Below, piece after piece: positions 30,030 to 33,565 of a stretch of 64,000 nucleotides of DNA. Source of the DNA: Geotoga petraea (lineage in GTDB: Bacteria; Thermotogota; Thermotogae; Petrotogales; Petrotogaceae); contig NZ_FMYV01000002.1 of the NCBI RefSeq assembly GCF_900102615.1, positions 124,001-188,000 on the forward strand. The letters are read 5' to 3'. The translations under genes were made by a program, and so were the position numbers. The notes under the pieces are model-generated. The model had not been told where the DNA came from, did not search any database, and saw nothing but the letters and a program-made list of their open reading frames with translations. Positions within the stretch are counted from its first letter, which is position 1. Every line of letters starts with the position of its first letter.

Positions 30030-31700
30030 TTGAAAACAGATATACAAATAGCAAAAGAAGCTAAACTTGAAAAGATCGAGAAAATAGCAGAACAACTAAA
30101 CATACCAGAAGAATACTTAAATCCTTATGGAAAATATATAGGAAAAGTGTCTTCGAGGTATTATGAAGAAATAAAAGATAACAAAGACGGAAATCTAATT
30201 TTGGTTACTGCAATAACGCCAACCCCAGCCGGAGAAGGTAAAACAACAACTTCCATTGGTCTTTCCATGGGGTTAAATAAAATGGGGAAAAAATCAATCG
30301 TTGCCTTGAGAGAACCTTCCTTGGGACCAGTAATGGGAATAAAAGGTGGTGCAGCAGGTGGAGGCTATTCACAGGTATTACCAATGGAAGACATAAACCT
30401 TCATTTTACTGGAGATATTCATGCAATTACAACGGCTCATAATTTGGTTAGTGCTGTAATAGACTCTCATATAAAATTTAAAAATGATTTAGAAATAGAT
30501 TCAACTCAAGTATTTTGGAAAAGAGCTCTCGATATGAACGACAGGGCCTTGAGGAATATTGTTGTTGGGCTTGGTGGAAAAACTAATGGTTTAGTTAGAG
30601 AAGATGGATTTATCATTACTGCCGCCTCAGAGATCATGGCCGTTTTATGTTTATCTGAAAACATTGATGATTTAAAAGAAAAATTATCTAAAATAGTAAT
30701 AGCAAGAAATATGGATAGAAAACCAATAACAATAGGTGATCTTAAAATTGAAGGAGCTTTAGCTTTGATTTTAAAAGATGCCCTAAATCCAAATTTAGTT
30801 CAAACCATAGATGGAACACCAGCATTTATTCACGGTGGACCATTTGCAAATATCGCACATGGAACTAATTCAATAATAGCAACAAAAATGGCAATTAAAA
30901 TGTCAGATTATACAGTTACAGAAGCCGGGTTTGGCTCAGATTTGGGAGCTGAAAAGTTTTTAGACTTCGTTAGTCCAAACTATGGCTTAGATCCAAAAGT
31001 AGTGGTTATTGTAGCAACTGTAAGAGCATTAAAATATCATGGTGGAATGTCTTTAAAGGAATTAAAAAAAGAAAGTATATACCATCTAAGAAAAGGCTTA
31101 GAAAACTTGAGAGTTCATATAGAAAATATGAGAAAATACGATATCCCAGTAGTAGTTGCGATCAATAAATTTGATTCTGATTCCGAAGAAGAAATCCAAA
31201 TGGTCGAAAACTTTTCTGAAGATATGGGAGTAGAAGTGAGTGTTAATGAAGCCTTTCTAAAAGGTTCAGATGGTACGATTGATTTAGCCGAAAAAGTAGT
31301 AAAAACTGTTGAAAATTCAAATACTAAATTCAAACCAATTTACAACCCTGAAGATGATATAGAAGAAAAAATCGAAAAGATAGCGACAAAAATATATAGA
31401 GCTGGCAATGTTGAATTTACTCTACAAGCTAAAAAAATGATAAAATTTTTTGAAAAATATGGTTTTGATCATTTACCTATTATAATAGCAAAAACACAAT
31501 CATCTATTTCTGATGATAAAAAGAAATTAGGAGCGCCAAGTGGATATGAGTTTACTATAAGAGATTTCGAGCTTTCTGCAGGTGCTGGATTTATTGTTGC
31601 GTTATCTGGTGAGATAATGAGGATGCCTGGTTTATCAAAAATACCGAATGCTGTTAATCTTGATATAGATAACGAAGGAAATATAAAAGGTTTATCATAA
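30030..31700 (+). CDS. fhs: Formate-tetrahydrofolate ligase
   Basis: ATP-dependent formation of 10-formyl-THF from formate. 556 residues, the family length. Motifs: [21 protein letters not shown] (P-loop), [23 protein letters not shown], and C-terminal [26 protein letters not shown] style (here [12 protein letters not shown]). TTG start after GTGAGGG. Followed 25 bases later by a divergent FolD; together they connect formate to 5,10-methylene-THF if the FolD partner works. Confidence 0.97.
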
Positions 31701-31725: not shown

Positions 31726-32535
31726 ATGGTAATAGATGTAGAGAACACTGTTAAAGAAGTTGAAAAAGAAATTGAATATCTGAAAAGTAAAACAGAAAAA
31801 CCAAAGCTTCTAAGTTTAACTACAAAATTAAACGGTTCGATTAAAGCTTACCTAAATTCACAAGCAGAAATAGCAAAAAAATATGGTATAGATTTTGAGT
31901 ATATCAAATCAGATAACCTTTATGAGGATATAAAAAAATACAACAAAGATATTTCTGTTGATGCACTTTTTATAGCAAAACCTTTGAAAAAAGATTATGA
32001 CGATAAACAAGTTGCAAAATTGATAAACCCTAAAAAAGATATAGAAGGGATCAGCTATCATAACATAGCAGCAATGTTTTACGAAGATGAATACTTCATT
32101 CCTTGTACTGCAGAATCAGCGGTCAAAATATTAGAGGATAATTTGAACATAACAGGTAAAAAAATTGCTTTAATGGGTAGATCTTATACTGTTGGTAAAC
32201 CTATTTCGATTCTTTTACAGAAAAAAGGAAGGGACGCAACTTTAACTTTGATAAATTCAAAGACCAAAGGTCAAAAAGAAATTACAAAATCTGCAGATGC
32301 TATAATTATAGCTATAGGTATTGCTGAATACTTGAACGAGGATTTTGTATCAAAAGGACAAAAAGTTATTGATGTAGGAATAAATGTTGAAAACGGTAAA
32401 TTAGTTGGAGATGCAAAAAAAACAATTTCAAAAATTTGTGATGTTACTCCCGTTCCAGGAGGAGTTGGAAATGTAACTTCTACAATATTAATGAGAAATG
32501 TTTATAGAGCAAAAATTTTAAACAGGGGGTTCTAA
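31726..32535 (+). CDS. folD: Divergent FolD (methylene-THF dehydrogenase/cyclohydrolase-like)
   Basis: 269 residues, slightly short for FolD. The C-terminal Rossmann half is canonical: PCTAESAV, GKKIALMGRSYTVGKP, VIDVGIN, DVTPVPGGVGNVTS. The catalytic N-terminal half is not. Where E. coli has YxxxK (Lys54) this has Y42-L-N-S-Q46; the QLPLP motif is A84-K-P-L-K; KDVDG is KDIEG (Glu107). Family work shows the Lys is essential for cyclohydrolase, so this may be only a dehydrogenase. It is directly coupled to fhs and, one base after its stop, to an M42 peptidase. Confidence 0.85.
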   Translation: MVIDVENTVKEVEKEIEYLKSKTEKPKLLSLTTKLNGSIKAYLNSQAEIAKKYGIDFEYIKSDNLYEDIKKYNKDISVDALFIAKPLKKDYDDKQVAKLINPKKDIEGISYHNIAAMFYEDEYFIPCTAESAVKILEDNLNITGKKIALMGRSYTVGKPISILLQKKGRDATLTLINSKTKGQKEITKSADAIIIAIGIAEYLNEDFVSKGQKVIDVGINVENGKLVGDAKKTISKICDVTPVPGGVGNVTSTILMRNVYRAKILNRGF

Positions 32536-32536
32536 A

Positions 32537-33565
32537 ATGGAAGAATATTTCGACTATGCAGTAGAACAGATTATATCATTGTGTAAAATTCCTAGTCCTA
32601 CTGGCTACACCAAAAAAGTTATAGAGTATTTAAAAAGAGAATTTGATAATCTGGGATTTAAATATGAGATCACCAATAAAGGTGCTTTTCTCACTGACTT
32701 AGGTGGAGAAGGTAATCCATTACTATTAGCAGCTCATATAGATACTTTGGGGGCTATGGTTAGATCGATAAAATCAAATGGAAGGATAAGACTGACAAAG
32801 ATTGGTGGATATCCAGAGAATAATATAGAGGGGGAAAACTGTATTATTCATACAAGGGATGGAAAAAATTATACAGGAACTATTCAATTAAATCATCCAT
32901 CAACACATGTTTATAAAGATATAAAAACTATGGAAAGAAATGATGAAAATATAGAAGTTGTTATAGATGAAAAAGTAGAATCAAAAGAAGATGTGGAAAA
33001 ACTGGGTATCAAAACGGGAGATTTTATTTCATTTGATGCAAGAACAATTTATACCAATTCGGGTTTTATTAAAAGTAGACACTTAGATGATAAAGCCAGT
33101 GCGGGTATTTTAATTGCAATAGCTAAAATGATAAAAGATGATAAATTGAAATTAAAAAGAAAAGTGTATATTATGTTCACATCTTATGAAGAAGTTGGAC
33201 ATGGAGGATCTGCTGGTATCCCTTCTGATGTAAAAGAAATGATCTCAGTTGATATGGGAGCCATAGGAGACGATTTAAACTGTAATGAATATCAGGTCAG
33301 TATTTGTGCAAAAGACTCAGGTGGGCCGTATGATTACGATGTGACTAACGATTTAATAGATATAGCTGGTTATAGTAATATAGATCATGCAGTTGATATT
33401 TATCCCATGTATGGTTCTGATGTTGAAGCTACTTTAAGGGCTGGTTATGACATTAAACATGGATTAATAGGCCCAGGTGTGTTTGCTTCTCACGGATACG
33501 AAAGAACTCATAAGGATGCGATTAAAAATACAACAAAATTACTGTTTAATTATATTTCAAAATAA
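32537..33565 (+). CDS. M42-family metallo-aminopeptidase
   Basis: Cytosolic, dinuclear-metal aminopeptidase of the tetrahedral (TET) type; 342 residues. LLAAHIDTLGAMV gives the first metal His and Asp, SRHLDDKASAGILIA the bridging Asp, TSYEEVGHGG the catalytic and metal Glu, SVDMGAIGD another metal Asp, and the final metal His lies in the C-terminal part. SD GGGGG. Last gene of the glgX-fhs-folD run; terminator at 33571. Confidence 0.93.
   Translation: MEEYFDYAVEQIISLCKIPSPTGYTKKVIEYLKREFDNLGFKYEITNKGAFLTDLGGEGNPLLLAAHIDTLGAMVRSIKSNGRIRLTKIGGYPENNIEGENCIIHTRDGKNYTGTIQLNHPSTHVYKDIKTMERNDENIEVVIDEKVESKEDVEKLGIKTGDFISFDARTIYTNSGFIKSRHLDDKASAGILIAIAKMIKDDKLKLKRKVYIMFTSYEEVGHGGSAGIPSDVKEMISVDMGAIGDDLNCNEYQVSICAKDSGGPYDYDVTNDLIDIAGYSNIDHAVDIYPMYGSDVEATLRAGYDIKHGLIGPGVFASHGYERTHKDAIKNTTKLLFNYISK

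Follow-up and report, generated by a model that had tools for sequence, protein, structure and literature searches.

We infer from sequence comparison, as regards both the activities and the direction of flux, that the FolD protein of Geotoga petraea is very probably a dehydrogenase only, and that the cyclohydrolase step is carried out by a separate protein of the FTCD_C/FchA family, which in this genome is encoded in the hut operon. The folD gene lies in a 64,000-nucleotide stretch of the genome, here called the window. Its product would still interconvert methylene-THF and methenyl-THF with NAD(P), the methenyl-THF cyclohydrolase activity would have been lost along with the catalytic Lys, and methenyl-THF and 10-formyl-THF would be interconverted by the FTCD_C protein encoded after hutI (G000:C3:257448-257987). 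Together with Fhs, forming 10-formyl-THF from formate, these two proteins would complete the usual route by which formate is turned into methylene-THF. A first-pass annotation had put forward two alternatives for this FolD, a dehydrogenase accompanied by another cyclohydrolase or a new role in one-carbon metabolism. The former is well supported at the sequence level, with one FolD and one FTCD_C in the genome and the pairing found throughout the phylum and in Clostridia and Fusobacteriota; no support was found for the latter.

The folD gene and its catalytic site

PF00763 was detected in 97 of 103 Thermotogota genomes, in which 106 FolD copies were found and all were read. Residues were compared with the FolD of E. 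coli K-12, taken from NC_000913. The features of the window are given below, with the state of each position among the Thermotogota copies.

30030-31700, + strand: fhs, formate-THF ligase; start TTG as listed; PF01268 859.5 bits, NF010030 892.2 bits (cut-off 652)
31726-32535, + strand: folD, an ORF with ATG start, 269 aa, PF00763 and PF02882; predicted 5,10-methylene-THF dehydrogenase, predicted to be without cyclohydrolase activity
31849-31851, + strand: Tyr42 codon (E. coli Tyr50); Y in 106/106 Thermotogota copies
31861-31863, + strand: Gln46 codon (E. coli catalytic Lys54); Q 69, I 35, M 2 and K 0 of 106
31975-31977, + strand: Ala84 codon (E. coli Gln98); Gln retained in 2/106 Thermotogota copies
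31978-31980, + strand: Lys85 codon (E. coli Leu99); position mostly H or R in Thermotogota
32044-32046, + strand: Glu107 codon (E. coli Asp121); E in 105/106, Asp retained in 1

Alignment to E. coli FolD placed Gln46 at K54, Ala84 at Q98 and Glu107 at D121, with Y50 kept as Tyr42, so that all three key positions are changed, as the first-pass annotation had read them. The segment matching E. coli residues 46–60 is SIKAYLNSQAEIAKK, in which the nearest Lys downstream lies five residues past Gln46; no neighbouring Lys therefore replaces Lys54 within the helix. An AlphaFold2 model, computed from an alignment of the window FolD and 29 relatives, had a pLDDT of 93.8 and placed Tyr42 and Gln46 together in a predicted helix that spans residues 37–52. 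Misalignment is unlikely because Tyr42 is invariant, shares a confident helix with Gln46 and is followed by no Lys until five residues beyond the latter; from the alignments and the model, a misalignment concealing a catalytic Lys was ruled out. According to an excerpt from the study of E. coli FolD (PMC5688156), cyclohydrolase activity was undetectable in the K54N protein while dehydrogenase activity was ~19 %, and the Q98H protein kept ~8 % of the dehydrogenase activity, with cyclohydrolase estimated at 1 %.

The NAD(P) half, which had been described as normal, is so for the most part. The exceptions are Asn177 (window 32254-32256), where E. coli has His190 and 93 of 106 Thermotogota copies keep His, and several columns that change together with the Lys-less clade.

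Domain scores for the product were 50.4 bits for PF00763 and 147.1 bits for PF02882 (Pfam), and the best NCBIfam model, labelled bifunctional, gave 187.2 bits, well short of its cut-off of 392. All 50 PDB matches listed by Foldseek for the AlphaFold2 model were FolD/MTHFD proteins, with TMq of 0.80–0.91. A second FolD in the same genome was ruled out, PF00763 having exactly one match (on contig C2). The coupling of folD to fhs proposed in the first pass is real, the end of fhs at 31700 lying 25 bases upstream of the folD start, and common, with fhs found within the fetched flanks of 63 of 105 other Thermotogota FolD loci. On the other side, an M42 peptidase gene (32537-33565) begins one base past the folD stop codon. 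Of the NCBIfam models it matched the NAGGN-system M42 peptidase best, at a score of 310.3, which is below the cut-off of 397.75.

The first-pass annotation implied that this gene is an oddity, but the trait runs through the whole phylum and is no accident: none of the 106 copies has Lys at E. coli position 54 and in 103 of them all three positions are changed. With Tyr50 kept in every copy, the site is under constraint and not in decay. The motifs in the FolD of one further genome (G090), for example, read YLKSQ, ARPFP and KDVEG. E. coli position 99 was occupied by H in 63 copies, R in 23, K in 1, Q in 8 and Y in 8, with F, T and L also found.

FTCD_C in Geotoga petraea and across Thermotogota

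It had been suggested that the genome be searched for a second folD or an fchA gene. No second folD was present, and one FTCD_C/FchA-family gene was found: PF04961 matched exactly once in Geotoga petraea (G000:C3:257448-257987, 232 bits), outside the window and on contig C3, thus not adjacent to folD on contig C2. Directly before it stands a 421-codon gene which we take to be hutI and which also matches hutI of Peptoclostridium acidaminophilum, and just upstream of this pair is a glutamate formimidoyltransferase gene (PF07837). The order is the same as that annotated in Peptoclostridium acidaminophilum, ftcD-hutI-FTCD_C. Among PDB entries the best match of the Geotoga petraea FTCD_C was 7vg4 (140.7 bits), whose chain is named methenyltetrahydrofolate cyclohydrolase, followed by FTCD 1tt9 (91.5) and 1o5h (82.8). 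It thus resembles FchA/FTCD_C of the 7vg4 type in its PF04961 domain and best PDB match, and differs in sitting in a hut operon. Near-invariant residues are kept (64 aligned rows including itself, with seven second copies set aside). Given the hut-operon location and the presence of FTCD_N in 92 of 103 Thermotogota genomes, the protein could be mainly a formimino-THF cyclodeaminase.

Outside the window, and separate from the hut operon, there is a second glutamate formimidoyltransferase-like gene (G000:C2:320257-320778; PF07837, 197.9 bits). Proteins of this kind have a role in 5-formyl-THF salvage according to an extract of PMC3223725; to assign this gene to such salvage would be a guess.

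FTCD_C was detected in 99 of 103 Thermotogota genomes; among the 97 that have FolD, 95 contain it. One of the two exceptions (G073) is 60 % complete. The other (G044) is an assembly of 60 contigs, 99 % complete, with two Lys-less FolDs; an FTCD_C protein from its genus gave no match when searched against it, and the neighbouring tgt gene, present in the sister genome G043, was not found either. Since tgt is missing too, an assembly gap is suggested, although not proven.

Because one row of the FTCD_C profile was a fusion (L238), the profile matched tgt proteins as well, but no tgt match was counted as FTCD_C. FTCD_C lay beside folD at none of the 105 other Thermotogota FolD loci, and most of the copies examined were tgt-linked or beside hutI. 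In many Thermotogota FTCD_C stands directly before tgt, the gene for queuine tRNA-ribosyltransferase (L235-L240, L242-L247 and L250), and in G040 it is part of one 597-aa open frame that apparently runs on into tgt. Copies adjacent to hutI were those of Geotoga petraea, G052, G045, G053 and G054. No FTCD_C was found in the fetched flanks of tgt in Geotoga petraea, G052, G053 or G054; Geotoga petraea therefore lacks the tgt-linked copy that is usual in the phylum and has kept only the hut-operon copy. A phylogenetic tree of 71 FTCD_C sequences separated a mostly tgt-linked Thermotogota kind from a kind that groups with the hut-operon copies of other phyla, with weak support for the deepest splits.

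A second, tgt-linked FTCD_C accompanies another copy in genera g2, g3 and g6. The five such copies that were aligned have lost the otherwise invariant Asp79 and Asp146 and, in part, the PGGG motif, whereas the six copies from genus g4 (present in six of its seven genomes), whose genomes contain neither another FTCD_C nor FTCD_N, have kept the invariant residues. It therefore looks as if one working FTCD_C is held per genome, whatever its source. The second copy in G045 has kept both Asp79 and Asp146. The tgt-linked copies of g2, g3 and g6 (L242-L246) are still open frames of about 190–205 aa, and they may have another role.

Loss of the catalytic Lys outside Thermotogota

FolD loci from other named bacteria were obtained by a genome-contig scan led by an Acetoanaerobium query, and consisted of the best 80 of 590 confirmed candidates, which is not a random sample. 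Of these, 79 were counted; the remaining locus (L217) was left out as its FolD could not be aligned under table 11, and its genome is without FTCD_C. Lys54 was absent from 21 of the 79 readable loci (Ala in 16, Ile in 4, Val in 1) and present in 58. Within this set of the best 80 of 590, FTCD_C was found in the genome for 21 of 21 loci without Lys in comparison to 4 of 58 with Lys, and fchA was beside folD for 15 of 21 in comparison to 0 of 58. For Fusobacteriota, 69 of 70 genomes had FolD (omitting L329, which matched weakly as a second hit in G223 and gave no FolD ORF), with Gln in place of Lys in five of the 69; FTCD_C was present in all five of these and in 13 of the 64 with Lys. Fisher's exact test gave 1.7e-15 for the best 80 of 590 loci (21/21 vs 4/58) and 7.6e-4 for Fusobacteriota, both values ignoring relatedness. 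Acetoanaerobium noterae and Fusobacterium vincentii are among the species with the pairing, and in the latter the sole FTCD_C match adjoins hutI.

In a first tree of 123 rows, the Lys-less FolDs of Thermotogota and Clostridia fell on one branch with an SH-aLRT of 87, which is below the 95 mark. A tree of 161 FolDs was then reconstructed with the three catalytic columns removed; the Thermotogota representatives did not include copies from G044 or G073, and L224 was omitted as it comes from the same genome as L283. Among its rows FTCD_C accompanied 39 of 39 Lys-less FolDs and 16 of 122 with Lys. On this tree Lys was lost twice, once in Thermotogota together with Clostridia and once in Fusobacterium, while FTCD_C needs nine changes. 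With only two independent losses, shared ancestry explains much of the co-occurrence. An independent-pairs test had two contrasts only and hence no power, and the association is not claimed as a phylogenetically independent statistic.

There is about an even chance that the cyclohydrolase step passed from FolD to the hut-operon cyclodeaminase in the Geotoga petraea lineage and, separately, in Fusobacterium. Gain of a hut FTCD_C would make the FolD Lys dispensable, and subsequent loss of Lys would lock the cell to the hut enzyme.

It is improbable that a dehydrogenase-only FolD needs no partner, with methenyl-THF hydrolysing spontaneously fast enough and FTCD_C serving histidine breakdown alone. 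Such a reading is in keeping with the G044 assembly, in which FTCD_C was not found, with the placement of the Geotoga petraea FTCD_C in the hut operon, and with statements in the excerpt of PMC5688156 that methenyl-THF turnover can occur spontaneously and that E. coli K54 mutants are viable, with poor growth. The same excerpt, however, describes the K54N strain as growing very slowly, and the reading is at odds with the presence of FTCD_C in 95 of 97 genomes, among them six of the seven from genus g4, which is without FTCD_N, and with its position beside folD at 15 of 21 clostridial loci (best 80 of 590).

Retention of the cyclohydrolase activity of FolD through another residue, for example a basic one in the place of E. 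coli Leu99 (Lys85 in the window protein), is less probable again. A change from Leu to a basic residue does go with loss of Lys54 in Clostridia (R in 21 of 21 Lys-less FolDs among the best 80 of 590 loci) and, mostly as H or R, in Thermotogota. However, Q (8), Y (8), F, T and L also occur at this position in Thermotogota, the Lys-less FolDs of Fusobacteriota have retained Leu, and the FTCD_C that accompanies Lys loss would be left unexplained. That the window protein has taken on a different one-carbon role and is no longer a methylene-THF dehydrogenase is hardly credible. Changes at three positions of the substrate site and at several columns that shift in concert speak for this; against it, the genome has no other FolD, the protein is conserved through the phylum, its gene adjoins fhs, and the predicted structure is that of an ordinary FolD, with TMq reaching 0.91.

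Comparison with known systems

A dehydrogenase-only FolD with a stand-alone cyclohydrolase is a known arrangement, of which the present case is a variation and no new pathway. The FolD of Clostridium perfringens is said, in work attributed to Aluri et al. 2016, to be a dehydrogenase only, with separate FchA and Fhs. The likeness to Thermotogota lies in the separate genes for dehydrogenase and cyclohydrolase plus Fhs. In Clostridium formicoaceticum the cyclohydrolase and the dehydrogenase were reportedly purified in separate studies, and the same kind of pairing is described for fhs, fchA and folD of acetogens and their relatives. Thermotogota differ from Clostridia in that FTCD_C is not beside folD, and in having Glu at the E. 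coli Asp121 position, which is mostly Asp in Clostridia (best 80 of 590 loci). With the bifunctional FolD of E. coli and most bacteria the window protein has in common the domains, the fold, Tyr50 and most of the NAD(P) half, and differs from it in the absence of Lys54, Gln98 and Asp121.

The best NCBIfam models for Thermotogota FolDs are labelled bifunctional, whereas the evidence points to dehydrogenase activity only. In metabolic models of Thermotogota the cyclohydrolase step would be assigned to the wrong gene, and FTCD_C could be regarded as a dispensable part of histidine catabolism. The co-occurrence of Lys-less FolD with FTCD_C is a rule that can easily be applied in annotation. No published statement that Thermotogota FolD is monofunctional was found in the open-licence PMC literature. 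The control genome of T. maritima contains both PF00763 and PF04961.

Yeast MTD1 (1edz), reportedly a monofunctional NAD-dependent dehydrogenase described in a 1990 paper, has the same three positions changed on alignment, including Asp to Glu in KDVEG. A relationship of the window FolD to MTD1 was ruled out, 1edz being the last of 27 listed PDB matches with 32 bits in comparison to 123.9 for the best. A second FolD-like protein of 332–344 aa was found in G052 and in every one of the seven g4 genomes (L080:1923-2930 in G038 and L133:1356-2351 in G052; also L077, L092, L094, L099, L104 and L110). Its best PDB match was 1edz, with 112.6 bits for L080 (next 68.1) and 69.4 bits for L133 (next 56.1), and it looks like a bacterial MTD1-like dehydrogenase held alongside the Lys-less FolD.
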